In this document: one piece after another, positions 5,701-55,646 of the stretch
Position numbering within the stretch: the first letter of the stretch is position 1
Layout of the letters: each line of letters begins with the position of its first letter
IMG/VR virus record: IMGVR_UViG_3300009705_000015
Coordinates: 1 to 64,000 of that record
Strand: one strand, 5' to 3'
Length of the DNA: 64,000 bases
DNA from: a virus
Translations under genes and position numbers: made by a program
The notes under the pieces: generated by a model
What the model was told of the DNA's origin: nothing
Seen by the model: the letters and a program-made list of their open reading frames with translations, nothing else
The model's database searches: none

Positions 5701-5778
5701 TGGCCGACCCGATACGCAGGTGGGCTGACGGCTTATCAATGTTTTGGTTCTCAATGTTTTTGGATTTTAGTGATTATT

Positions 5779-7629
5779 ATGGCAACAAGAGATGAATCAA
5801 TCCGTTCATGGATTCGCACGAACTACCCAAACCAATCAATCCGTGCCAACATGAGTTATGGTCAATTGGTCAGAATTGTTCAAGACCTGTCTGGAGGTTT
5901 GCCAGATGTTTTGGGAGAAGTTCCTGACGATATGAAATCGACACGGATATTTGGCTCGATACAACCAACAACAACGGACAGTTCTGGAACGTCAAATCTG
6001 AAAATTGGAACAACATCAACCGGCGCATCTGGCAGCAATGCCGCAGCAACAATCACCGATGGCAAATTGAATCTCACATTGCCGAGAGGAACAACGGGAA
6101 CCACAGGTGCATCTGGGGCATCTGGGGCAACAGGCTCAACCGGCGCTGATGGGTCGCAAGGCATTCAAGGCATTCAAGGCTCTCAAGGAATACAAGGAGA
6201 TGAAGGCTCTCAAGGAACTGCTGGGGCGGCGGGTTCTCAAGGTATTCAAGGTGCTACGGGAACCACAGGTTCTCAAGGTGCTACGGGTCCAGCAGGACTC
6301 CAATGGCGAGGTGCTTGGTCGTCAGCAACCGCATATATCGTATCTGATGTTTCATCCGATTCAGGCCATTCATACGTTTGCATCGTGGCGAATCAATATC
6401 GACAACCTCCCAACGCAACCTATTGGGAATTGCTCGCTGACGCTGGTGCTGCGGGTCCGACAGGTTCAACGGGTCCTCAAGGAGATGTTGGAACAACCGG
6501 CTCTCAAGGTGCGACCGGCTCAACAGGCTCACAGGGTCCTCAAGGAGATGCTGGCTCTCAAGGTATTCAAGGTAATCAAGGAGTTCAAGGCACTGCTGGA
6601 ACCACAGGTTCAACGGGTTCAACGGGGGCGCAGGGTGCAACGGGTTCATCAGGACTTGGAGTTCCTGCTGGTGGTGCAGCACATAAAGCATTGACCAAAA
6701 TTGATGCCACCGATAACAACACCCAATGGGGCGGGGTTATCGAGTTCGCTCAAGCCGATATACCATCTGCACCAGCAACGGGGAATATCCGAATCGGTGC
6801 TGGCAACAACAGCAACACATTCGCCATCAACACCGAACATGGCTACATCAACATGGGAATGCAAAACGGTGGAACATGGGCGCACATGAAAACAAGTGCA
6901 ACATACTTCTATTTTCACAGGTCAATTCAATTGGATGGTGGCGACGGATTGTATGCGTATGATGGCGATTTTTGGGTCAAGACCGACGACAAGAATAACG
7001 CACATCACGAGCGTTTGACAATTCTCGGTGGAGATAGTCTCGTTGCTGGTGAAACACGAATAGGGATTGACAAAACAACCCCAGCAACCGAACTCGATGT
7101 GAATGGAACAATTCGCCAATCTGCGACTACAAATGCAATCGTCTATGCCGATGCAAACGGCGACCTCACCCCATTGACGATTGGTGCTAATCTCACGCTC
7201 ACAGGGAACTCTTTGGCCGCATCTGGTGGTGGTGGTGGAGGAACAAATCTATTGCCACCGACTCTCCAGCCTGTTCCTGATGGTGGATTCATTCCCCAAA
7301 ACCTCAACAAAGTGATTGCTTTGGGTGGCGATGGCAGCCCTATGATAATTGACTTGCCACCAACAACCCCAACACATCAAATTACAATCACGAACACGGC
7401 ATCGACTCCTGTGTTGGTTCAATTGACTCCAGCCTCATTCCCTCCGATTCTGTGGACTAAAATGAATGGCCAAACAGGAATCCCGATGCAAGGAGGGATG
7501 CTGACAGTTCATGCAGGTGTCAGTGTGAATGCCGTCTATACTAATGATGATGGGGGCGGTCAACCCAGATACTACATCGAAACATTCAATGTCAGCGAAG
7601 AAGGTCGAACCATAGATATTGCACCATGA
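5779..7629 (+). CDS. Collagen-like tail fibre or virion surface protein
   Basis: 616 residues. After a 100-residue head (possibly the attachment part), Gly-X-Y triplets such as GSQGIQG and GATGSTG fill about 102-172 and 222-290. Between them is a 45-residue insert with W and Y residues (WRGAWSSATAYIVSDV) resembling a carbohydrate-binding module of the CBM5/12 type. The C-terminal half contains a short pattern typical of fibre shafts (IGIDKTTPATELDVNG), a hexaglycine hinge and a beta-rich tip. Such proteins form trimeric fibres that bind the host surface. ATG 5779 was preferred to the GTG 9 bases upstream. The DNA repeats make this gene prone to length variation. Confidence 0.85.
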   Translation: MATRDESIRSWIRTNYPNQSIRANMSYGQLVRIVQDLSGGLPDVLGEVPDDMKSTRIFGSIQPTTTDSSGTSNLKIGTTSTGASGSNAAATITDGKLNLTLPRGTTGTTGASGASGATGSTGADGSQGIQGIQGSQGIQGDEGSQGTAGAAGSQGIQGATGTTGSQGATGPAGLQWRGAWSSATAYIVSDVSSDSGHSYVCIVANQYRQPPNATYWELLADAGAAGPTGSTGPQGDVGTTGSQGATGSTGSQGPQGDAGSQGIQGNQGVQGTAGTTGSTGSTGAQGATGSSGLGVPAGGAAHKALTKIDATDNNTQWGGVIEFAQADIPSAPATGNIRIGAGNNSNTFAINTEHGYINMGMQNGGTWAHMKTSATYFYFHRSIQLDGGDGLYAYDGDFWVKTDDKNNAHHERLTILGGDSLVAGETRIGIDKTTPATELDVNGTIRQSATTNAIVYADANGDLTPLTIGANLTLTGNSLAASGGGGGGTNLLPPTLQPVPDGGFIPQNLNKVIALGGDGSPMIIDLPPTTPTHQITITNTASTPVLVQLTPASFPPILWTKMNGQTGIPMQGGMLTVHAGVSVNAVYTNDDGGGQPRYYIETFNVSEEGRTIDIAP

Positions 7630-7886: not shown

Positions 7887-8255
7887 ATGATAACTGACGA
7901 CCCAGCGGAATACGCAATGTGGCAACAGGAACAAATCCGTGATGCTGAAATGGCGGAGGAACACCATCTGGAACAATTGCACGAGGCCACGAACGTAATG
8001 AAGCAAATCCATGAAGTGGTTGACATCAATTGGATTGCCATGAAGCGTGAGCAAAATATGTCAGAGTCGATTATCAATTCCATCAAGGAGAGTCTTAAAA
8101 CACATCGAGACAAGAGCCATGTATTCCATTGCATCATGTCGCCGATTCTCCAAGCATTGAATGAATCTGAATACTTGCTCGAAGCGAGTCGTGATATATT
8201 CGTTGACCCAAACAGTAAAAGTGCTGGTGAGGCTGGGGAGATTAAGGGGGATTGA
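7887..8255 (+). CDS. Helical hypothetical protein, 122 aa
   Basis: Almost entirely alpha-helical and acidic, rich in E, Q, M and H (EEHHLEQLHEATNVMKQIHEV). It is probably a coiled coil. The start lies 23 bases after a TATA element. It is followed after 3 bases by the cytosine methyltransferase, so the two are co-transcribed; it might be a partner or modulator of the enzyme, but nothing in the sequence shows this. Confidence 0.65.
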   Translation: MITDDPAEYAMWQQEQIRDAEMAEEHHLEQLHEATNVMKQIHEVVDINWIAMKREQNMSESIINSIKESLKTHRDKSHVFHCIMSPILQALNESEYLLEASRDIFVDPNSKSAGEAGEIKGD

Positions 8256-8258
8256 AAT

Positions 8259-10511
8259 GTGTCTGATGAAAAACCAACAAGGCCATTCCGATACATCTCT
8301 TGCTTCTCTGGAATCGAAGCCGCATCCGTCGCTTGGGAACCACTTGGATGGGAACCTGCAGCATTCTGTGAAATCGAGCCATTCCCATCTGCGGTCTTGG
8401 CAAAACGATTCCCAGATGTTCCAAATCTCGGAGATATTACAAAGGTGAATTGGGATGAATGGAAAGACAAAGACATTGACCTTATCATCGGAGGCTCACC
8501 ATGCCAATCGTTTTCTGTTGCAGGAAAGCGACTTGGATTGGATGATGCTCGTGGGAACTTGGCAATCGAGTTCTGCCGCATTATTGACACGGTTCGACCA
8601 ACATGGTTCATCCTTGAAAATGTCGCTGGTCTCCTGTCGTCTGACGGAGGGAGGGATTTTGGTTCCCTTATCGAACTCATGGGGGAATGCGGGTATGGGG
8701 TCTCATACAGGATTCTTGACGCTCAACACTTCGGAGTTCCCCAACGCCGTCGTCGAGTCTTCGTTGTTGGACATATTAGAGCCGATTGGCGACATTCCGC
8801 AGCGGTATTATTTGAGCAAAGCAGCCTGCAGCGGAATCATTCGCCGACACACGGAGGCGAGAGCAAAGAGGATGCCAGAAGTTCTCCAGAAGGCTTTGGA
8901 GAGAGGGGCAGCGGGGATGGTAAATCTCCCGATACTCGAAGAAGAGTAAAGACCGAGACCTATGGAATCGGTGGTGGCCAAGCCGCCCAATGGACTAATC
9001 CAGCCGCCAATCTCGCACCAACACTTCATTGTCAATCGGATTGCGCTCTTGTCGGACATGAAGTCGATGATTCGGCATTTGCATTTGTTGAATCCATGAA
9101 TCACGATTCAGATGGCAAAGCACGACGACAGATTCGAGTCAAAGGAGATAAGACCAACACCGTTGGAACAACGAGTCAAGGTGGAACAACCCATGCGACT
9201 ATGGTTGCACAGGAAACTGACGACCCAGCAGCATTCGCATTCAATCAAGGATTGACTAAGAATGGCAAAGGGATTCTCCGTCAACCCGTGAATATCACAG
9301 GCGACACGACCAACACTATTTCAACAACCCAAAACCCACGAAACGCTGCAACAATGGTTGCACAGGATATGGACCCAGATGCCTTCGCATTCGTTGAGGG
9401 TATGAACCAAGCCAAAGACGGTTCGACACGCAAGCAAGTGAACGTGAAGGGCGACAAAACCAATTCTCTATCCACGCACCACGATACCAGCACGAATGCA
9501 ACAATGATTGCACAGGCTCATCCATCTGGTGTCGATTGGGATGGTGAACTGCCAATCGGTATCGGAGGCAATCAATCCAACCAACAAACAGTCAATTCGT
9601 TGATGGAGAACAAATCTCCAACATTGGCGGTTGATGCTCGCAATGCGGTTGCAGTTCCGATTCCAGATACAGCATTTGTTCTCGATGGAGTCAATTCCAA
9701 TTCGATGAAATCATCCAACCCAGATTCTGGAATCCACGAAGAATCAATATCTCCGACTCTTGACACATCAGCACCAACACCGGCCAAGAATCAAGGCGGG
9801 CTGGCGATTCTCCAAGAGGATTCCGTTTTGCCTATTCAGATATTCACGAAGGGTCAAAATGGAACAGGAGTCGGTCAGGCTGGTGCGCCTTCATACACAT
9901 TAAGTGAAATGGGGAATGAAGGGATTATTTCAATTCCCAATGATGAGGGAGATGATGTTGCAGCATTCACATCAGTGGGAGATGGCCGTGTCTTTGAATC
10001 AAAGGTTCACCCAACACTTTCATCATCTGGTGGTGGCCAAGCGGGTCAAGGTTATCCTGCAGTTCGTCAAGAAGGAGTTCCACGCCAGCCTGCGGTTGCC
10101 GTTGCTATCAATGACGACCATGAGGGTCGGCTTGTTGGTGGAGATGGTTCACGAACAGGAACTGTGTTGAGTCAACCACATAAATATCAATCCCAAATAC
10201 TTGAGAAGCGAGATATGATTGTTCGTCGATTGACTCCAAAAGAATGTGAGCGATTGCAGGGATTCCCAGATGATTGGACTAAAATTGAATGGAATGGCAA
10301 ATCGGCTGATGATTGTCCTGATGGCCACCGATACAAAGCGTGTGGGAACTCGATGGCCGTGCCGGTCATTCGATGGCTTGGCGTGAGGATTCAGAACGTG
10401 CATAATGCAATTCCAGAAGTTCCATTGCCAGATGATGATGATACGCTCTTAGCCGATTTCAAAGACGGTGTGGCGGTCGGTCAAAAGACAATGGATTCGT
10501 GGTTTTCATAA
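8259..10511 (+). CDS. DNA (cytosine-5-)-methyltransferase with repeated target-recognition insertion
   Basis: 750 residues from a GTG start 3 bases after the previous gene. The catalytic core carries motif I FSGIEAASVAWEPLGWE near 15, motif IV GGSPCQSF with the catalytic Cys at 82, ENV near 123, motif VIII FGVPQRRRRVF near 160, and motifs IX-X (RRLTPKECERLQGFP near 656, GNSMAVP near 696). About 490 residues lie between motifs VIII and IX, much longer than in typical Dcm enzymes. This insertion contains three repeats of about 50 residues (near 270, 322 and 372) with AFAF, GDKTNT and ATMVAQ signatures, then several SPTL motifs common in phage C5-methylases. It transfers a methyl group from S-adenosylmethionine to cytosine, likely protecting viral DNA from restriction. 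No cognate restriction enzyme is visible. Confidence 0.93.
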   Translation: MSDEKPTRPFRYISCFSGIEAASVAWEPLGWEPAAFCEIEPFPSAVLAKRFPDVPNLGDITKVNWDEWKDKDIDLIIGGSPCQSFSVAGKRLGLDDARGNLAIEFCRIIDTVRPTWFILENVAGLLSSDGGRDFGSLIELMGECGYGVSYRILDAQHFGVPQRRRRVFVVGHIRADWRHSAAVLFEQSSLQRNHSPTHGGESKEDARSSPEGFGERGSGDGKSPDTRRRVKTETYGIGGGQAAQWTNPAANLAPTLHCQSDCALVGHEVDDSAFAFVESMNHDSDGKARRQIRVKGDKTNTVGTTSQGGTTHATMVAQETDDPAAFAFNQGLTKNGKGILRQPVNITGDTTNTISTTQNPRNAATMVAQDMDPDAFAFVEGMNQAKDGSTRKQVNVKGDKTNSLSTHHDTSTNATMIAQAHPSGVDWDGELPIGIGGNQSNQQTVNSLMENKSPTLAVDARNAVAVPIPDTAFVLDGVNSNSMKSSNPDSGIHEESISPTLDTSAPTPAKNQGGLAILQEDSVLPIQIFTKGQNGTGVGQAGAPSYTLSEMGNEGIISIPNDEGDDVAAFTSVGDGRVFESKVHPTLSSSGGGQAGQGYPAVRQEGVPRQPAVAVAINDDHEGRLVGGDGSRTGTVLSQPHKYQSQILEKRDMIVRRLTPKECERLQGFPDDWTKIEWNGKSADDCPDGHRYKACGNSMAVPVIRWLGVRIQNVHNAIPEVPLPDDDDTLLADFKDGVAVGQKTMDSWFS

Positions 10512-12834: not shown

Positions 12835-12840
12835 ATACCA

Positions 12841-13113
12841 AGCACGAGTCGAGTCGAGTCTTAGGCTCTCCATCCCTGCGGGGGTGGGGGGTCGTTGAGA
12901 TGTGATAGTCAATTATCCATGCCACCCATCTGGTGGTGTTGGTTGCAGTTCACCCGATACTCACACCGATTGGTGTGGAGATGATGAACAATACCATGCC
13001 GGTGATGCTGGAGGGATTCATTCCTGAACTGCTCACCTCCAACATCTGTGATGGGTGCGATAGATGCCGCCCATGCGTGTGTGCTGGGGATGGCGTGTGC
13101 GTGTCGATTGCTT
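12841..13113 (+). other. Structured intergenic region, possible RNA locus
   Basis: Several strong hairpins are visible: CCACC/GGTGG (12922-12936, loop CATCT), CACACC/GGTGTG (12962-12977, loop GATT), GATG and TGGAGG (13004-13014) facing CCTCCA and CATC (13027-13037), and ATGGGTGC facing GCCGCCCAT (about 13040-13063). The region starts with three GAGTC repeats at 12850. A GTGATAGTC element at 12902 could be a weak TATA. A 44-residue Cys-rich frame overlaps it, so an RNA and a coding reading compete here. Confidence 0.35.
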
Positions 13114-35089: not shown

Positions 35090-35100
35090 TTTTCATGGAT

Positions 35101-35224
35101 GATTTGGAGGGTGCGTGAACTCCCCATCTGTTTCAGGTTCTATCTCAAAGCGCATCCTCCAAATCAATCTCAATCTCACGTTCTCGCCAAAGGCTTGAAG
35201 AGGTTCGAGGGCTTCGAGTCTTTT
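35101..35224 (+). ncRNA. Structured leader of the glycosyltransferase gene (candidate)
   Basis: GATTTGGAGGGTGCG (35101-35115) pairs with CGCATCCTCCAAATC (35151-35165), 15 pairs with one G-T. The transcript start expected from the promoter falls at about the base of this helix. The remaining bases up to ATG 35225 may regulate translation. The frame from 35099 would encode a 42-residue extension with no GT homology. Confidence 0.45.
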
Positions 35225-36568
35225 ATGGCGAGGATATTATGGGGTTCAGAGCAACCCCTCCGACCAACAGGCTATGCGGTTGTCAGCCGTGAAATTATCA
35301 AACGATTGATTGCAGATTATGGACATGAAGTTCATGTCATAGGTTGGGATTACAACGGCGAGGATTTCAAACACGAAGAAGGATGGATATTGAAACACTG
35401 TGGACTTCAATTCGGTGCATCAGAACCTCTTCAAATCGGCGTTGAAAACAGCCCAACCGTCTTGGACTATCACCTTCAAACCGTTGAGCCTGATGTTTAT
35501 TTGAGCCTTGTTGATTGCTGGTTTTGTGGCCACATGGTTCAATCGACAAACAAGGCTGGAGTTCCATACATTGGATATTTTCCAATCGACGGAGTTCCTA
35601 TTTCAAACCAATGGACACCTATTCTGGCGCACACCCACACCCCTCTATGGATGAGCGAGTTCGGTCGCCAGCAGTTCAAGGAGTTCGTGGCCAAATACCG
35701 ACCAGATGGAAATGGACATGAGAACTTGAAAATGCCTGACCTTGACCGATTCAATTTGGATAACGACGACGACTTTCCAATGATTCATCACGGCGTTGAC
35801 ATTGATACATTCAAACCTCTATCGCTCACGGACAAAGAGATAATGAGGGGCAAATTGGGAATCAAATGGGAGACCGTCTTGAGTTCAATCGGGCGCAACA
35901 CCAATCGCAAGCAGATTCCAAGACTCTTGAGGGCGTTGAGAATTGCTCTTGATAAATTGGGAGATGATAATGCCATTGGTATAATTTTGCATTGCGGCGA
36001 CCCTCTTGACCAAATGAATCAGGGCGGTTGGAAACTGCCAGAACTCATCAAGCAATATGAACTCGTTGGGAATGTCATGTTCTCCGATGGTTCAAGCAAT
36101 CCACTTCATGGAATAAGTCGTGAGGATATCGCCAATCTATTAGGTTGCTCGGATGCTCATGTGCTGGCAACAGGTGGAGAAGGATTTGGAATCCCATCGG
36201 CAGAAGCAATGGGAGTCGGAATCCCGATAATCCTCCCAGATAATTCAACGGGTCCAGAACTTATTGGACTCAATAATGAAAGAGGCTGGCTCGTGCCGTG
36301 TTCCGATTCGATAACGGGTCCGAGATGGGGTGTCGATTTGGGGCTGGTTGACATTGAAGCGTTGGCCGATACCTTGATTGAACTTCACCAATCTCCGATT
36401 GAACGTATAAAAAGAGGCAAAGCGGCTCGCAAGTTCGTGGTCGAAAATCTCGATTGGGATTTGATAACTCGTCAGTTCCACGATTTGATTGAATCCAGAA
36501 TCGGTATGAACCATCCCATGCAAGAATTATTGGAATCTCGTGCTGGGGGCGAAGAACCTGTCGAATAA
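35225..36568 (+). CDS. GT4-type glycosyltransferase
   Basis: 447 residues from ATG 35225 (MARILWGSEQPLRPTGYAVV), the usual GT-B start with the glycine loop. The C-terminal half has IGRNTNRKQIPRLLRAL near 218 and EGFGIPSAEAMGVGIPIILP near 318, the E-x7-E nucleotide-sugar site of family GT4. The enzyme transfers a sugar from an NDP-sugar, perhaps to virion proteins such as the fibres, to modified DNA, or to host surface glycans. In-frame start codons exist upstream but are outside the conserved domain. Preceded by a hairpin leader. Confidence 0.8.
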   Translation: MARILWGSEQPLRPTGYAVVSREIIKRLIADYGHEVHVIGWDYNGEDFKHEEGWILKHCGLQFGASEPLQIGVENSPTVLDYHLQTVEPDVYLSLVDCWFCGHMVQSTNKAGVPYIGYFPIDGVPISNQWTPILAHTHTPLWMSEFGRQQFKEFVAKYRPDGNGHENLKMPDLDRFNLDNDDDFPMIHHGVDIDTFKPLSLTDKEIMRGKLGIKWETVLSSIGRNTNRKQIPRLLRALRIALDKLGDDNAIGIILHCGDPLDQMNQGGWKLPELIKQYELVGNVMFSDGSSNPLHGISREDIANLLGCSDAHVLATGGEGFGIPSAEAMGVGIPIILPDNSTGPELIGLNNERGWLVPCSDSITGPRWGVDLGLVDIEALADTLIELHQSPIERIKRGKAARKFVVENLDWDLITRQFHDLIESRIGMNHPMQELLESRAGGEEPVE

Positions 36569-45156: not shown

Positions 45157-45241
45157 TTATACGACCGATATTGACTCCAATACATCGGAATATCAATACG
45201 AACTTCGAGAGTATATGAACTCCGCAAAAAAGAACCTAAGT

Positions 45242-45270
45242 ATTGATATACCGACACATTGATATAGTCG
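45242..45270 (+). promoter_or_regulatory. Two-box promoter of the structured locus at 45271
   Basis: ATTGATATACCGAC at 45242 and CATTGATATAGTCG at 45257, 16 bases apart. A terminator-like hairpin (CCGAT...ATCGG with ATTG/CAAT inside) just after the stop at 45156 precedes it. Confidence 0.7.
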
Positions 45271-45530
45271 AGGCTACACCATTCAAATTGTCCGAGCATC
45301 CAGCCGAACACCCGACTCCCCCAAAGCGGGGCTGAGAACGGTGGGAGTCTGGCGGCTAAGACCGATGCGCCTCCGCATGAAAAGTGCGGGGGATAAAATT
45401 GGAAACGAGAGCGATTAGAGTCCTCAAGCCTTGAGCCTCCAGAGTCTCCCAAGCAGGTTAAAATGTGCGGGATTACGGCATGGTAGCAAGACAGGATTAG
45501 TGTCCACCCTTTGGCGAGGGTGGTTGGGTA
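45271..45530 (+). ncRNA. Candidate structured RNA, strongest of the set
   Basis: A 260-base stretch with several perfect stems. AGCCG (45302) pairs with CGGCT (45353) and encloses GACTCCC (45314) with GGGAGTC (45343). CCTCCGCA (45370) pairs with TGCGGGGG (45385), loop TGAAAAG. CTCAA (45423) pairs with TTGAG (45431). CCACCCT (45504) pairs with AGGGTGG (45517). It has a promoter of the standard two-box type and no gene on either strand. I compared it by eye with RNase P, SRP, 6S, tRNA and CRISPR RNAs and saw no match. Confidence 0.65.
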
Positions 45531-45719
45531 TATGATTTGTTTGCGAATATCAGATATTCACAGAACGCACCGACTTCACCTATTTACACGGTGATGTCGA
45601 TTGTCAGTATGTGTTTGCTCTCGTTCCCCTGCCTGTCAGAAAGAGTATCGGCGCACTACGCCAAGTGTGTCGAGAGGGTATCTGGCAAGGGTGGGCGCAT
45701 CGGTTTGGGCTTCTTATTC

Positions 45720-45750
45720 CATTGATATTACCAAAGCATTGATAAGGGGG
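45720..45750 (+). promoter_or_regulatory. Two-box promoter for gene 45768
   Basis: CATTGATATTACC at 45720 and GCATTGATAAGGGGG at 45736, 17 bases apart; GATAAG ends 21 bases before ATG 45768. From the RNA locus to here (45531-45719) no gene is convincing. Confidence 0.7.
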
Positions 45751-45767
45751 AACTGCCAGCGTTGGAT

Positions 45768-47983: not shown

Positions 47984-48010
47984 TATTGGATTCGATATGA
48001 AAGTCGCTGA

Positions 48011-48040
48011 TTTCAGCAACCCCCCAGCGGGTTGATGAAA
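48011..48040 (+). terminator. Hairpin terminator after the hub gene
   Basis: TTTCA and CAACCC (48011-48023) pair with GGGTTG and TGAAA (48030-48040), 11 pairs with single bulges. Confidence 0.6.
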
Positions 48041-48068
48041 TGCAATTTGACGTTCTATTTGCCTGTCA

Positions 48069-48083
48069 TATTGAACTCAATAG
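48069..48083. promoter_or_regulatory. TATTGAACTCAATAG palindrome
   Basis: Copy of the recurring intergenic palindrome (others at 11456, 11860, 12014, 55652), about 60 bases before the promoter at 48146. Confidence 0.4.
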
Positions 48084-48145
48084 CATTGTCGATGTTTCAG
48101 GCTGGCTCGAAACGACCGATTTCATTGCTGATTAAAGAACCAAAG

Positions 48146-48159
48146 CATTGATATAGTGG
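48146..48159 (+). promoter_or_regulatory. Promoter of the structured locus at 48160
   Basis: CATTGATATAGTGG preceded by CCAAAG. It has no upstream CATTGATAT copy at 16 bases but shares the TATA box with the promoter at 16891. No coding start lies 21-23 bases downstream. Confidence 0.6.
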
Positions 48160-48660
48160 AATGCACACCGTTGTTTGTAGCCGGAACATCAGGCCACCGA
48201 CGACCCTCGACAATAACCGACCACTTTTGAGTCGGCTGGCGGGGATTATTTGAAACGCTACACACCTCAACATGGTGGATAGGGTGCGTGAGTCTCCTTC
48301 GAGGAGAACGGATGAAATAGCCACCTCCCAGATGTTGAGGCGTTCTAAAGACGAGCCTGTGCAGCACCTCGTGAACATCACTTGGTCAGACACCAGCGGA
48401 GAACTTAAAGTGGAATTGGTTGAAAACCAATGAGAACGGGAGGCATGAGTCTTTCTCCCTCGTTTCAAATACATGGTGAGAATCTCTCCCTTAGCGGGGA
48501 GGGTCGTTGCCTTCAACCGCACAGGGGGGAGGTCAATCAGAAACATCGAGTTCGTCTTTATTCGGGTGCAAACCGGAACTGAAAGGGTGGCGGGGGTGTG
48601 GGCGACAAGCGAAGAGTTCTATCAACCTCACCGATGATTTGGTTTAGCGACCATCTCATC
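48160..48660 (+). ncRNA. Candidate long structured RNA or leader of the giant fibre gene
   Basis: About 500 bases without a gene. CCGAC (48217) pairs with GTCGG (48231). CCTCAACAT and GGTGG (48265-48278) pair with CCACC (48321) and ATGTTGAGG (48332), 14 pairs with a 6-base bulge, and enclose TCTCC/GGAGA (48293, loop TTCGA). AACG (48254) and CGTT (48341) extend it. ATTGGTT/AACCAAT (48415) and CTCCC/GGGAG (48486) are further hairpins. It could be an independent RNA or the long 5' leader of the fibre gene, whose own TATA-like element is weak. Confidence 0.6.
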
Positions 48661-48668
48661 GGTGCTGG

Positions 48669-51600
48669 TTGGCCACTTCACCTTCTTTCATCCTTAGCAA
48701 CAACCACTTAAAGCGGCGAGGATTACCATTTGATGTGCCACCAGCGCCAGCAATAACCCCCTCCACAGGAATGCCGGTTGATACGGTGGATATGATTCCA
48801 CCAATCGGGAGTCGGGGCTTGCCCTTGACCCTCGTTTTTCACGATAGCATTGACGACACCATTGCCGATGCAGCCAATTCCCGTATGGCTCTCTGGGATG
48901 AAGCGGTTTGGACACCGAGAGCGACGAATGCGGTCGGTGCATCTGGAACTGTAATCAATCCCAAAGGGGTCGTGCCATCAACAACAACATTCGACAAATC
49001 AAGTTATCCACCAACACCAACCAATCTCGGAATGGAACAAATCCCAAGAGCGTTTGGATTGCGAATCGCAACAACCGCACCCAGATTGAATCATGCGAGA
49101 GGGCATTTGCTTCAAGGACAAACAGGTCAAGACATTGGGGCGAGTCGCCACTATCCAGAACAAGTGAAAGGAACTTGCGGATTTGGAGGCTTGTCGATTA
49201 CAGAAGCGGGTCAATTCACATCTCATCCAACAGAAGGCTACACATCGGCTCGTGCTGGGAATCACACTTGGTCTCAAACATCAAGGTCTCAAACATCTCA
49301 ATTTGACCAGATGGCCGGAATGCCATTCGTTGAAGGAACATTCTCCAGCACAGAATCCACATGGATTGGGGGTCCTCAAGTGGCCAACATAGCCCACAGT
49401 GTTGCTGGCGATATTCCATCAAATGGTCTTGGGATAATTTATGGAGATAAGCACAATTCACAGTTCCAAACCACGCTTGTATCGAGTCCGATATTGTCAA
49501 CGGCGACAACGTGTGGAATCGCTTTCACCGAAGACGAACATACATTCTCATCTCATTGGGTCATAAATCTCCGAACAGACCAACCATTCGTTGAAACGGG
49601 TCAAGACATTTCAATGCCAGATGGATTGACAGGCTGGTCAGTGATGGGTCAAGCGTCTGCTCGCCATGCCAATGCTGCGTTCAGTGGTGAAGACACCATC
49701 CAACAAATCCTCACACACGATGCAATATCCAATGGCACAGCCCCACCTCAATCGAAGGAAAACACGACTCTTGGTCGTGTTGATTTGGGCGCAAGTGTGG
49801 TTGTCGATTCAGCAGGTTTGATTGGATATGAAGGTGTGATTGTAGCCAGCGCATTCTTCGCACCAACGAGAGACACCGACCCGACCCAGATTCAAGGTGC
49901 AATATCCAACGACACCACCTCGAAGGGCTATGCGGGGATTAACATTCAAGTTCATAGTGGAATGACGGCCAGACGAAACCAGACACCATTGATTGATACT
50001 GGACCCGAACCCTATCTCTATGGAACCGATGGTTTAGTAGTCATGCCAATGACCGATATGGTCAAGACATATGCAGGTCGAGGAATCGGACACACTGTTC
50101 CAGCCTCAACAAATGCAAACAACACATGGGTTCGGAACTTTGGTCGTGTCAGAGATGATGGGTCGGGATTGCCAAGTCAAGCCCCAGCGGTTGGCGATAC
50201 CACCGCCAAGCCATTTGGGAATGGGCTAATCGAACGTAAAGGGGCGGGTCGAGCCACTAAAATTGTTGGCTCGAATGCGTGTTCGGTTGGTTCGCCAGAG
50301 TCGATTGATTTAGAATACAGCACAGGCCGTTGGATTGCAGATGGAGTTCCAACCAAAGTTCAAGTCATTCCCTCAATTGTTGGCTACACCGATGTGGTTG
50401 TTGCTGCCGGTGCTGCAAAATTAGCAGCCAATCCCGCAGCACCAAACCAAACATTCCGCAAGCCAATCGTGGATTATCACGTTCTGGTATCGGTTATTGA
50501 CCCCAATAATGTTCCTGCTGCGGTTGCCGATACTGACCCAGCGAACACGAACATTGGTCAACCAACGAACAGGAATGCGCCGATGTCAAATCGACTACAC
50601 ATTGATGCTAATTATCAAGACATTCCATGCACTATTTATCACGCTATTTTCAGAATTGACCCGACCAATCTGGAACAGATATTTATTGAATCTGGTGCTG
50701 GAGTTATGGCCGGTTTGGATGCCACCAATTTTGATTGTAAAGCATCCATCATCCCTCGTCATTCTTTCACCGATGGTGAATATGCTCAACAAGGTTGGGG
50801 TCTTCACCAAGCGACACCATTCCGACCGATAGCATTGGCCGACTCGAATACTCGGATTCCAAAATTATGCGCCGCCATCGAGGCTGGTGGATTCTATCAA
50901 CGAGGTGGGATTTCACATCTCTGGGATGCCTCCATCTATGAAGGTGAACTCTTTGTTGGGGCTGATTTCATTGACTCACATGACCTATGTGTAGCCACCG
51001 GCACGAAGGATGGCCACACCACATTTGGTGTGTTTGGCAATGGTCAAATATGGCCAGATGGAACTCCATCCCCTCAACGACCAAAGGGAACTGAATTGAT
51101 GGTGTGGCGATACTCGCCGACCCTCGACCCTCTTTGGACTAAAGACACCACATTTGCCAGCAATCCAATCAAGGATATGTTCCCAAAGTCAGTGGTATCG
51201 GTGGCATATGATACCTCTTGCGACACCATGACGAGAGCATCCACCGACTTGTTGAATATATCACGAACTGCAATCGGAATCGGTGCGGTCTGGAATCTCC
51301 ACGATTGGGTTATGCCACAGATTGAAATGATGAGATATTTGGGTCGTGAAGAGAAGGATGCGGTGGTTCATCCTTTATCATCACAGGCTGCATCTCCACC
51401 TCTCCCCATCTATCACCCAACGCTTCATTGTTCCAGCCTGCGAATCATGGAGGATGGTCGGATGGCTATGGCGGCGGTGCATATCGACTACATCAAAACC
51501 GAGAATGATTATCCAGCGGTTGACATCAAATATCCTTTGAATCCTGACCTTGACACGGGCGGTTGTCCTGCTGGATATTACCAATCTGGTGGCAAGTGCA

Positions 51601-54600
51601 TTCCACTTGATGGTGGTCAAAGCGACAATCCATCGGGATATGGTTCAGACCCAGCATCTGGAGATGTAGTTCCCGAACCAACCGGCGCACCATCACCCGT
51701 CAATGGGTCAGGTGGTTCGACTCCCAAGAGCGATAACTTCTCCGCATATCCAACATGGTCGAAACTGATGGCGAACACACAGGCTCGCTCGTTGATTTTG
51801 ATGTTCACCGATGTCAAAGAGGATGAACAAACAGGACTCGCCAAGCGTGGGCGAGCGTTGTTTGATATTCGATGGGAGACCATTCCTATGGGAGATGGAG
51901 AAGTTCCAGATACTATCGCCAACCAAATGTGGGTTGATGGAGATACTTGGTGGTCAGGTGCAAGAATCTCATATTGGTATGCCGAATCTGGACAACAAGC
52001 AATTCCAATCACATATGGTTCATATCCCGATTGCCGAATGACTTTTGCACATTTACCACGTTCATTGCCATTCATCGAAAATATAATTATTGGGTCCAAT
52101 ACGGTTGGAACTATCCGTTCTGGATTCCCGCAGATTCAGCCGATTACCACAGCACGAACTTTGAGCGTTGCTTTGCCATTTATCAATGCAAATCTCGGCC
52201 AGCCTGTGAGCGCATGGTCGGTTGAGCGCATTGCGTTTTTGACATTGACTCGGTTCGTGGCAACGACAATCGGCTTTGCTGACTTTGGCTCTGGTGCGAA
52301 TCCTCACCAAGAACTTGGGTGGTCTGGTTGGTCATTCCCTCGTGGCCTCTATGACCCAGCAGCATTCGGAGATAACACTTTATTCTTTTCAGATGCGCCA
52401 GAATCAACAGAAGCAGAACCACCAATCGGTGGTGTCATTGTTCCAACCGAGCAAGGGATATTCGCTGGATTCGGAGATATTATTGACGATAATGCTGGAG
52501 GGGCGAATCCATACGCACCAGCATTTGCATATTCTCTCGATTGTTCAGCCATCACATATCCTGTGAACCTTGAATCATTCAGAGCATACAAAGCCGGTGG
52601 AACAGGAGAACAATTGTTGAATCCACCAAGAACCTGTGGTGGTTTGACAGAAGTTCTCGCCAACATAATGGACCCAGCGCAATCGACTTATTTTGCTCTC
52701 GACCAAGAATATGTCAACACCGGAGAGCCTCCATTCCAGATTATTGGAACTTCATTGGTGAGAACATACAACCCCTTCAATCCTCCAACGATTGAAGCGC
52801 AGATGCTTTGGACTTCAATAACTCTTGGTGGAACTACAATTCCATTCGTGTTTCATGGAACAGAAGGCCACCGATTGATGCGGGGTGGACAAGGTGGATG
52901 GTCGCATCACGGACCCCTCCACTATGGAATCTCAACCAAATTGCATCCATACCGTGTCGATAGAGTCTTCAAACAAGTTCACGGTGGTGTTGGCTACAAT
53001 TTGCCGATTCATTTGCTCAAGCCTCCTGCTGTCCATGTGCGAGCGAGAGCCGGAGGGCGCAATTCTCTTGAACTTGAAATGGAGACTCCATTCCACCGAA
53101 CTGACAACATTCACTTGCTCGGTGCTGCGACTTTCAACACCGGATTTGAACTCGGTGGGGAATCTCCAGCAGGTCAAGCACGACCCGTTGCTGGTCAATA
53201 CTTCTTGCGAACTAATCTATGGGATAAACCAATGTGGCCAACGGGTGGTGCAAAGCCAGCCAAGACTCTTGGGCTTGGTGCATACACGAGAGTTCACGGA
53301 CCCATTGTCAGTGGCTCATATGGGCTTGAGGCATTCTGGTCAGACCATCCAACCGACCACTTTCATGCTGCGGCGATACCAATTCTCCCCAACACCGATT
53401 ATGACCTATCTATGATTCAAAATAGCCGATACTCACCAATGATGCTTGGTCGAATCAAGGAAATGAGTCGGCACGATATGATTGCTGTGTCAGAACAATT
53501 GATGTCGTCTGTTGACGTTCATGTATCGAAAAGTTCTCGACCAATGTGGGATTCTGGCGGAATCGTATCGGCTCAAGGTATTGGGTATAAGGATGCGGTT
53601 GCGGGTCCATACATGATTCAAACACAATCCTCGATGGATGGTGAGAACTTGAAGGGTCCGGCGACTATGGCCGGTGGTTCGGGTCCACAGTGTCTCGGTC
53701 ATGGCCAACGTATAGTCAGAACTCCAGATGGAACTCTTCACCAATTCCAATTCCACAGGTCGGTTCAATCTGGGTCGCTCAATCTCCCCCAATGGTGTCA
53801 TTTGAAAAAGCCAATTCATGCGGATTTGTTTTACAATCGCAGAGCAATGAAACCAGACCAAGACGCTGCGGTGTTCGGTGGCAAGGATGAATGTGGACCC
53901 ACATTGGCATCCGTTGGTGCTGGGATGAGTCAAGGTGAATACCATAAAGGCCGAGTCATGGGGGCTGCGTTTTGTTCCGATTCAAATGGAACTCTCCATG
54001 CGGTTATTGAATATCATCCAAATCCAAATGATGTGCCAAGCCATCAAGCGCATGAACTGTATTATCATAAGGCTGAAAGAACCATGTCAACATACAATCC
54101 AGAACCCGTTTATGATTGGGATTGGTCAGTTCACACACCCGTGTTGATTCAATCTGGATTGACAGGAACAACAGAATCGGGAGGAACTCGATGGGATTTG
54201 AGGCAACCATCTCTCGTGTGCGATTCTCAAGACAAATTGCATCTCGCCGTTGTCCAAGTTCTATCCACCGTTGGTGGTTCAGGATTGCCTCAATCGACAA
54301 GGATATTCTATACTTGTAAATTGGATAGTGAACCATCATTCGCCGATTGGGTTCCATTGGATTCCACAGCACGGCCTGACGACAATAGGTGGCAATTGGT
54401 TCACGGCTCGATTCCTGATGCTGGCTATACTACGCTCAACCAAGCATCGGTGGGTCCACATTACACCAATTTCAACGCAGAGCCAAAGGTTTGTCTTCGT
54501 GGCGACAACCTGCCTGTTGTATTTTATCGAGGTTTTCCAATCCAATCGTTTGGAATTGCTGACAGGAACTATTCGGCGATATATGCCAACATAGGAATAA

Positions 54601-55646
54601 GCCCAAATGTATTGTCAAACGACCCATCAGGGAGATACGCATTCGACACCAAACGATGTTATCATGTGGTTGGATTGCCACCAGATGCAAAGAATACTCT
54701 TGAGCCATACAATGTCGTGTATTATGACGCAATCATAGATGAGCGAGATAGAGCATTGGTCGTGTCGTGCAAGGATGATAGAGACACCTCGTTGGCCAAA
54801 ACATTCGCACCAAGACAAACACTTCTCACCGTCTTTGATACTCGCAAGACACTTGCTGAACAATACGATGCAATCAATGGACTTGGCAATCACATAACGG
54901 TCTGGCGTGGACCCGTGTATAATGGAACAAGCGAACTGAAAGCCGTTGACCCATCATATCGAGATTTGACTTTAAGCACGGATGGAAAAGGCAACATTCA
55001 TCTGGTAATGACTTTCAGTATGATTGGCGAAGACGATGGGAGACTCGGAGAAGTGTATCGAGATGCTGCTTCTCCACAGGTCAGACAATCGGCGCTGGGT
55101 CCACTTCAATGGGCGGCGACTCCAACGGGCAAACTGAACGTCAGCGGGGTCGAAACCCCATATCTGGGTGGATTCATCAAGCCAAACATTTCACCGAATT
55201 GGTCTGGGGCGGTTGTTCCACCATATCCACCATACATGGATTCAACCACAGGCCGTGAATATCAACATATTTTGCATTGCTGGATTCCGTCGATTGAGTT
55301 CGACACGACTGCGAACGTATTACGCTCAATCAATATCCGCTGGCTATCCGTGCCATCTCTCCGATGGGATAACGCCAACAACACTTGGAGTCCTGTTGGC
55401 TCGGCTCAAACAATGGCCGGTCAAGAGGATTTTCCACACCATTCGACTCAATTGCGCTATCAACGATTCTGGGGATATGATGCGTCAGAGATTGATTTGA
55501 GATGGTTCACCAACGAAACCTCATGGTATCGAACAGGACATAAAGGCGCAGATTTGTATTATCCATCGGCTGGCGGAGTTCAAATGCAAATGGGAGATTC
55601 TCAAACGAAAGGTGAAGGAATCGCAGGTTATCCAGACGGGCTGTGA
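48669..55646 (+). CDS. Giant tail fibre/receptor-binding protein, 2325 aa
   Basis: The largest gene in the window. The TTG at 48669 was chosen because no ATG lies near and TTTAG ends 21 bases before it; the frame has no earlier start without crossing structure. No signal peptide or membrane segment. The middle contains a short Cys-containing patch (CPAGYYQSGGKCIP near 966). Several repeats near 1770, 1852 and 2104 read G-x-L-H-x-V or G-x-I-H-L-V after an Asp, like Asp-box or BNR-type beta-propeller blades seen in sialidase-like proteins. The rest is strand-rich. Likely forms the long side or central fibre and may bind or trim host sugars. Active-site residues are not identifiable by eye. Confidence 0.7.
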   Translation: MATSPSFILSNNHLKRRGLPFDVPPAPAITPSTGMPVDTVDMIPPIGSRGLPLTLVFHDSIDDTIADAANSRMALWDEAVWTPRATNAVGASGTVINPKGVVPSTTTFDKSSYPPTPTNLGMEQIPRAFGLRIATTAPRLNHARGHLLQGQTGQDIGASRHYPEQVKGTCGFGGLSITEAGQFTSHPTEGYTSARAGNHTWSQTSRSQTSQFDQMAGMPFVEGTFSSTESTWIGGPQVANIAHSVAGDIPSNGLGIIYGDKHNSQFQTTLVSSPILSTATTCGIAFTEDEHTFSSHWVINLRTDQPFVETGQDISMPDGLTGWSVMGQASARHANAAFSGEDTIQQILTHDAISNGTAPPQSKENTTLGRVDLGASVVVDSAGLIGYEGVIVASAFFAPTRDTDPTQIQGAISNDTTSKGYAGINIQVHSGMTARRNQTPLIDTGPEPYLYGTDGLVVMPMTDMVKTYAGRGIGHTVPASTNANNTWVRNFGRVRDDGSGLPSQAPAVGDTTAKPFGNGLIERKGAGRATKIVGSNACSVGSPESIDLEYSTGRWIADGVPTKVQVIPSIVGYTDVVVAAGAAKLAANPAAPNQTFRKPIVDYHVLVSVIDPNNVPAAVADTDPANTNIGQPTNRNAPMSNRLHIDANYQDIPCTIYHAIFRIDPTNLEQIFIESGAGVMAGLDATNFDCKASIIPRHSFTDGEYAQQGWGLHQATPFRPIALADSNTRIPKLCAAIEAGGFYQRGGISHLWDASIYEGELFVGADFIDSHDLCVATGTKDGHTTFGVFGNGQIWPDGTPSPQRPKGTELMVWRYSPTLDPLWTKDTTFASNPIKDMFPKSVVSVAYDTSCDTMTRASTDLLNISRTAIGIGAVWNLHDWVMPQIEMMRYLGREEKDAVVHPLSSQAASPPLPIYHPTLHCSSLRIMEDGRMAMAAVHIDYIKTENDYPAVDIKYPLNPDLDTGGCPAGYYQSGGKCIPLDGGQSDNPSGYGSDPASGDVVPEPTGAPSPVNGSGGSTPKSDNFSAYPTWSKLMANTQARSLILMFTDVKEDEQTGLAKRGRALFDIRWETIPMGDGEVPDTIANQMWVDGDTWWSGARISYWYAESGQQAIPITYGSYPDCRMTFAHLPRSLPFIENIIIGSNTVGTIRSGFPQIQPITTARTLSVALPFINANLGQPVSAWSVERIAFLTLTRFVATTIGFADFGSGANPHQELGWSGWSFPRGLYDPAAFGDNTLFFSDAPESTEAEPPIGGVIVPTEQGIFAGFGDIIDDNAGGANPYAPAFAYSLDCSAITYPVNLESFRAYKAGGTGEQLLNPPRTCGGLTEVLANIMDPAQSTYFALDQEYVNTGEPPFQIIGTSLVRTYNPFNPPTIEAQMLWTSITLGGTTIPFVFHGTEGHRLMRGGQGGWSHHGPLHYGISTKLHPYRVDRVFKQVHGGVGYNLPIHLLKPPAVHVRARAGGRNSLELEMETPFHRTDNIHLLGAATFNTGFELGGESPAGQARPVAGQYFLRTNLWDKPMWPTGGAKPAKTLGLGAYTRVHGPIVSGSYGLEAFWSDHPTDHFHAAAIPILPNTDYDLSMIQNSRYSPMMLGRIKEMSRHDMIAVSEQLMSSVDVHVSKSSRPMWDSGGIVSAQGIGYKDAVAGPYMIQTQSSMDGENLKGPATMAGGSGPQCLGHGQRIVRTPDGTLHQFQFHRSVQSGSLNLPQWCHLKKPIHADLFYNRRAMKPDQDAAVFGGKDECGPTLASVGAGMSQGEYHKGRVMGAAFCSDSNGTLHAVIEYHPNPNDVPSHQAHELYYHKAERTMSTYNPEPVYDWDWSVHTPVLIQSGLTGTTESGGTRWDLRQPSLVCDSQDKLHLAVVQVLSTVGGSGLPQSTRIFYTCKLDSEPSFADWVPLDSTARPDDNRWQLVHGSIPDAGYTTLNQASVGPHYTNFNAEPKVCLRGDNLPVVFYRGFPIQSFGIADRNYSAIYANIGISPNVLSNDPSGRYAFDTKRCYHVVGLPPDAKNTLEPYNVVYYDAIIDERDRALVVSCKDDRDTSLAKTFAPRQTLLTVFDTRKTLAEQYDAINGLGNHITVWRGPVYNGTSELKAVDPSYRDLTLSTDGKGNIHLVMTFSMIGEDDGRLGEVYRDAASPQVRQSALGPLQWAATPTGKLNVSGVETPYLGGFIKPNISPNWSGAVVPPYPPYMDSTTGREYQHILHCWIPSIEFDTTANVLRSINIRWLSVPSLRWDNANNTWSPVGSAQTMAGQEDFPHHSTQLRYQRFWGYDASEIDLRWFTNETSWYRTGHKGADLYYPSAGGVQMQMGDSQTKGEGIAGYPDGL

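Follow-up and report, generated by a model that had tools for sequence, protein, structure and literature searches.

The question raised by this locus is whether the roughly 500 gene-free bases ahead of a very long fibre gene belong to that gene as a leader or form an RNA gene of their own, a preliminary description of positions 48144-48660 having spoken of a "structured RNA or leader". The window, by which we mean the whole stretch of 64,000 bases analysed here out of a 65,015-base IMG/VR virus record, contains portal, HK97-type capsid, prohead protease, terminase, and tape-measure genes, and therefore comes from a tailed virus. The TATA-like promoter class of this virus is CATTGATAT/AA, and around the 27 such sites on both strands of the window the start codons cluster about 22 nt past the box, with five at exactly 22 nt and five at 21 or 23–25 nt. 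Together, the TATA-like box and the leaderless starts suggest an archaeal virus, and the viruses of Poseidoniales are a plausible group for it (PMC13108676, PMC10160649). The nearest terminases in a phage collection, mostly those of phages of Gram-positive bacteria, share about 30% identity with that of the window; the 608-aa protein encoded upstream of the locus has no match in that collection, and BLASTN of window and L087 sequence against phage records gave no match either. Among the strong sense-strand promoters, the clearest sites lacking an ORF are those at 45258 and 48147.

The gene-free stretch ahead of the fibre gene

As had been described, a promoter precedes the stretch: CATTGATATAG at 48146-48156 on the plus strand belongs to the same class as the promoters of the leaderless genes of the virus. 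The following 500 bases or so contain no sense ORF and no frame conserved as protein; the idea that the region or its antisense ORFs encode protein was discarded for lack of any Pfam match or conserved frame, the 149-aa antisense ORF at 48097-48546 included. The long arm reported before, spanning 48262-48343 on the plus strand, was recovered as two 12-nt strands (48262-48273/48332-48343, 92% complementary), the 14 pairs originally counted including further outer pairs, and both its inner TCTCC-TTCGA-GGAGA hairpin (48293-48307) and the ATTGGTT/AACCAAT repeat (48415-48432) are present. That reading had missed two stronger elements, namely the perfect 11-nt inverted repeat 48247-48257/48461-48471 and a 3′ hairpin at 48629-48664 on the plus strand, which is followed by the U-rich CUUCUUUCAUCC and is a putative terminator. 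From the promoter, this hairpin, and the U-rich stretch, we infer a non-coding transcript, here called RNA2, that would be made from its own viral promoter between about 48173 and about 48690 on the plus strand, and thus would reach past the end at 48660 first given to the feature.

The folding energy of RNA2 lies below that of shuffled controls (z −2.65; −2.4 to −2.8 across estimates); nevertheless, among 71 control segments taken from all over this genome, 7 reach a z at least as low (one of these overlaps the second RNA described below), and the antisense strand of the region reaches −2.10. Since about one in ten segments of this genome folds equally well, folding energy by itself is not decisive for RNA2, and we dropped it as proof.

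Relatives sharing a 5′ head

The upstream 608-aa protein has 37 relatives in viral contigs. In the closest ones (L003/L014, L004/L061, and L036/L062), the site after its gene is likewise gene-free, and in other relatives different small ORFs are found there, so that the cassette at this site varies. What follows the 608-aa gene in L003, L004, L036, L005-L007, and L016-L018, at this hypervariable site, is small ORFs or RNA on either strand, several of which have a promoter of their own. L004 and L036 have two blocks in common, about 80% identical, that differ by single-base indels and match in several frames and on both strands, and so do not look coding. A 66-codon open frame with an internal repeat (TELVLGVFAPDVVASVKN...VVASVRKP), for which no homologue was found, lies in the 3′ half of the L004 RNA (about 8280-8480). 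Gene-free, hairpin-rich stretches also follow a GGTGGG element after the 608-aa homologue in L018 (about 7186-7356) and L021/L023 (about 7924-8094); they are unmatched by the covariance models R1 and R2 presented below and are perhaps another RNA.

The pattern GGGGN{1,4}AWTTGRAA, taken from the end of the shared 5′ head, matches the window only at the site of RNA2 and at that of a second copy, RNA1, with no match in the reversed control, and it led us to a record with the RNA ahead of a portal gene. Searching with CGATGCGAGTCGRGGGGTGAA retrieved ten contigs, each of which contains the head: the L081 group, L085, L087, and the L004 and L036 types; in the L081 group, L085, and L087, the RNA lies upstream of a portal homologue with 59–62% identity to the portal of the window. 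The members amount to nine (L003, L004, L036, L081, L085, L087, L147, RNA1, and RNA2), with lengths of about 290–780 nt, and they occupy four kinds of genome site: ahead of a fibre gene (L003, L004, L036, and RNA2), ahead of a portal gene (L081, L085, and L087), ahead of an unrelated small ORF (RNA1), and among small ORFs (L147). Wide degenerate patterns run on viral contigs returned only chance matches beyond the known members, and in genomes taken one per species neither relatives of the 608-aa neighbour nor the 21-base head pattern were found.

In all nine members, the head starts 18–20 nt after the 8-base TATA-like motif (20 in RNA1, 18 in RNA2, and 18–19 in the others); the box of L147 differs, yet the spacing is kept. 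A spacing this constant is an argument for placing the head at the 5′ end of a transcript. Its elements follow the order UUGU, hairpin 1, CCGAwG, hairpin 2, and AAUUGGAAA, with an AACA-type loop on hairpin 1 and a GNRA-type loop on hairpin 2 (GCGA, GGGA, and, in RNA1, GAAA) in most members. An 11-nt tetraloop receptor for hairpin 2, sought by eye, was inconsistent across members and is not claimed. Beyond the head, the interior is variable and little sequence is shared between lineages; the family, with its few members, is defined mostly by 70 bases.

Two covariance models were built. R1 contains the heads of L081, L085, L004, and L036, without any window or L003 sequence, these four having been chosen because MAFFT misaligned parts of the full set of seven heads; R2 adds the newly found members, including RNA1 and L003, and RNA2 is in neither model. 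R1 found the distant member L147 in record G019 (E 5.1e-16, 50.6 bits), matched L003/L014 precisely where the RNA was expected (E 1.2e-4 and 3.9e-4, 18.7 bits), and gave RNA1 as its top match in the window, starting at 45286 (E 0.012, 14.3 bits), with a second window match at E 0.065 that is presumably due to chance. R2 scores RNA1 at 46.3 bits, a figure that is not evidence, given that RNA1 is part of R2. Its top match in the 746 bases at 47990-48735, with filters off, is RNA2 at 48173-48260 (13.1 bits, E 0.0011), and a filtered search of the whole window with R2 did not report RNA2 at E ≤ 10; the whole-record search did not list L003 either, although L003 is a training row of R2. Going by these sequence comparisons, RNA1 is a member of the family, and RNA2 is likely a divergent one, a placing helped by its position at the same site as L003, L004, and L036, its promoter spacing, and its perfect 11-base P3 helix.

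RNA1 came to light when the window was read for the same head; it lies in another stretch free of genes, 45157-45735, whose anatomy matches that of RNA2. Its promoter core ATTGATAT lies at 45258-45265, and the predicted non-coding RNA extends over 45286-45715 on the plus strand (z −3.59/−3.6). The 5′ strand of its helix P1, ACCGATGCGCC at 45361-45371, is complementary in 11 of 11 positions to 45694-45704 (mean pair probability 0.93; p 0.0025); the covariance-model alignment places hairpin 2, with its GAAA-type loop, at 45370-45392; and the P3 5′ strand, GGAAACGAGAGC at 45401-45412, has its partner at 45617-45628 (p 0.005). Downstream of RNA1 there is another promoter, followed by an ORF of 114–116 aa starting at 45762/45768. 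Relative to shuffles, the folding of the 430-base segments at window 4600 and 12700 is as strong as that of RNA1 (z −4.0 and −3.9), and 12835-13047 is a gene-free gap.

The corresponding parts of RNA2 all lie on the plus strand, and R2 aligned those of the head. Hairpin 1 (GUAGCC ggaacauca GGCCAC, 48177-48197) keeps the [CG]AACA loop of L081, L085, and L003; CCGAcG at 48197-48202 would be the 5′ strand of P1, written CCGAwG in other members, with two possible 3′ strands at 48499-48507 (a perfect 9 bp) or 48546-48556; and hairpin 2 (48205-48244) is extended, CCUCGACA...UGGCGGGG enclosing an inner CCGAC/GUCGG. The AUUUGAAACG element at 48247-48257 would be the 5′ strand of the long helix P3, complementary in 11 of 11 positions to the 3′ strand at 48461-48471.

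The covariation in related viruses that had been proposed as a check was found in the head. Across eight heads, 96.4% of the cells of hairpins 1 and 2 are paired, and 9 of their 18 pairs show two-sided changes (shuffled mean 2.8; reached in 0 of 500 shuffles) in an alignment that was fitted to the model and so leans towards structure; the signal is best at slide 0 and is destroyed by sliding the partner. A MAFFT-only alignment of four sequences gave 2 two-sided pairs (30 of 500 shuffles). P3, in which the AAUUGGAAA element pairs with a strand farther downstream, a different one in every member, has a combined p of 8e-6 over the nine members in the partner search, vs. 0.86 for control segments; taken singly, it falls below 0.05 in five of the nine, is not significant in L004 and L087, and reaches only p 0.06 in RNA2 despite its perfect complementarity. 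P1, the pairing of CCGAwG with a strand close to the 3′ terminus, has a combined p of 0.001 and is clear in RNA1, as well as, at full length, in L085 (p 0.005) and L087 (p 0.0025), its partner being uncertain in the others.

Weighing the readings of RNA2

We consider it quite probable (roughly 0.78) that RNA2 is an independent non-coding RNA gene under a promoter of its own and that it belongs, as a divergent member, to a family of large structured RNAs of viruses, of which RNA1 is the second, better-conserved copy in this genome. The element stands at predicted transcript 5′ ends, occurs at four kinds of site without a fixed neighbour, shows compensatory changes, and encodes no protein, and therefore a trans-acting non-coding RNA gene is its best account. 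Homology, covariation, promoter spacing, and the variety of sites are what the data support, while transcription, termination, trans action, and any function are what we infer. The members are placed like accessory (moron) cassettes at varied genome sites, and this placement makes trans action probable; during infection, the RNA would act as a structural molecule that is folded and perhaps forms oligomers or binds protein. Counted against this account are the 13.1 bits of RNA2, significant only as a test of the chosen 746-base region, its folding energy, which is ordinary for this genome, the absence of P1 from some members, the lack of significance of P3 in L004 and L087, the fitting of the covariation alignment to the model, the scarcity of shared sequence beyond the head, and the 66-codon frame of L004, which is without homologues.

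The leader half of the preliminary description did not hold up, while its structured-RNA half is borne out by the homologues, the covariation, and the fixed promoter spacing. A 5′ leader of about 500 bases or a cis-regulatory element of the fibre gene, riboswitch-like or for translational control, would fit an RNA that lies on the same strand directly upstream of that gene, as also happens with the fibre homologues of L003 and L004. However, the fibre gene has a promoter core of its own, TTAAA at 48708-48712, exactly 22 nt ahead of a GTG at 48735, in an arrangement kept in three lineages (the window, L003, and L004), for which reason the automatic ORF start at 48669 is probably too early and the gene most likely encodes 2303 aa (48735-55646, plus strand), its homologues beginning at the same codon, rather than the 2325 residues first reported. 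The fibre mRNA should therefore be leaderless; at the sequence level, a promoter intervenes between RNA2 and the gene, and a leader would require a transcript that ignores it. Moreover, the spacing from RNA to gene is not kept, and the same element precedes a portal gene in some members and an unrelated small ORF in the case of RNA1, and in L147 it has small ORFs around it; it is thus not bound to the expression of a fibre. All of this makes a leader very unlikely, the least probable of the readings considered here.

That the stretch is a spacer, decayed or without function, in a hypervariable cassette, so that only the promoter is real and the structure arises by chance, is improbable, but somewhat less so than the leader: relatives carry different small ORFs at this site, the energy of RNA2 falls inside the range of the genome, and its homology is weak, against which stand a head conserved across lineages with two-sided changes, the fixed promoter spacing, and the P3 pairing in members. 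Two further readings are functional sub-cases of the independent RNA gene, with which their confidence overlaps, and each is, as a specific proposal, unlikely to a similar degree. A pRNA-like RNA for packaging or head/tail assembly would agree with the position of every member of known site except L147 in or adjoining the structural-gene region, like the viral RNA gene of the phi29 type; however, there is no fixed partner gene, phi29 pRNA is far shorter than these RNAs, and since this genome has two copies while the search of most relatives' records detected none, the RNA would not be essential for assembly. The reading as an antisense or sponge RNA that targets a transcript of the host or the virus draws on the haloarchaeal tailed virus HFTV1, in which regulatory antisense RNAs are frequent (PMC12542753). 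These are likewise non-coding transcripts of an archaeal tailed virus, those described here being predicted from sequence, but the HFTV1 RNAs are antisense to genes, whereas RNA1 and RNA2 are intergenic with their own promoter and conserved structure; BLAST of RNA2 against the relatives' loci showed no notable complementarity except the promoter motif, and outside the head the conservation is structural and not sequence-specific.

Relation to known viral RNAs

To our knowledge, large structured RNAs of no known function have been described so far mainly in bacteria and their phages. Two of them, GOLLD and ROOL, form homo-oligomeric RNA-only cages. As our best guess, by analogy, the independent RNA gene proposed here would be a trans-acting structural RNA, GOLLD/ROOL-like in kind and unrelated in sequence. 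GOLLD is a large, heavily structured non-coding RNA of phages and prophages with one conserved end and a variable remainder, ROOL is a phage-encoded large structured RNA without a known protein partner, and neither has a known function (PMC12286853). The new family resembles GOLLD in being a large structured non-coding RNA of tailed viruses with one conserved end, but in GOLLD the conserved part is the 3′ end, many examples are longer than 800 nt, and tRNA genes are often nearby, whereas here the 5′ head is conserved, the length is 290–780 nt, and the window has no tRNA gene. With ROOL it shares being a large structured phage-encoded RNA, and differs in that no tRNA island is found here and no Rfam model was matched at the thresholds tried. 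The family is absent from the public RNA-family library: Rfam 15, in both gathering and permissive modes, gave nothing credible and no match near any gathering score, and a search of the open-access literature turned up no report of such RNAs from magroviruses.

We would give even odds to the wider proposal, namely that tailed viruses of presumed marine archaea carry, as mobile accessory cassettes, a family of large structured RNAs that act in trans and have not been described before, with two copies here and possibly forming RNA-only assemblies. The presence in archaeal-looking viruses of a family that has a promoter of its own and a defined 5′ head and shows covariation would extend the class of large structured RNAs to another virus group, and the R1 and R2 alignments provide a model for finding it in metatranscriptomes. 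The accessory cassette sites of these viruses seem to hold RNA genes, missed by gene callers, besides small protein genes.

Elsewhere in the window, a strong promoter-like site on the minus strand at 5740, CATTGATAA, points leftward and has no ORF at the usual distance. Other genes of the window encode a 619-aa protein with collagen-like repeats (5770-7629), a C5 cytosine methylase (8259-10511), and a glycosyltransferase (35099-36568).
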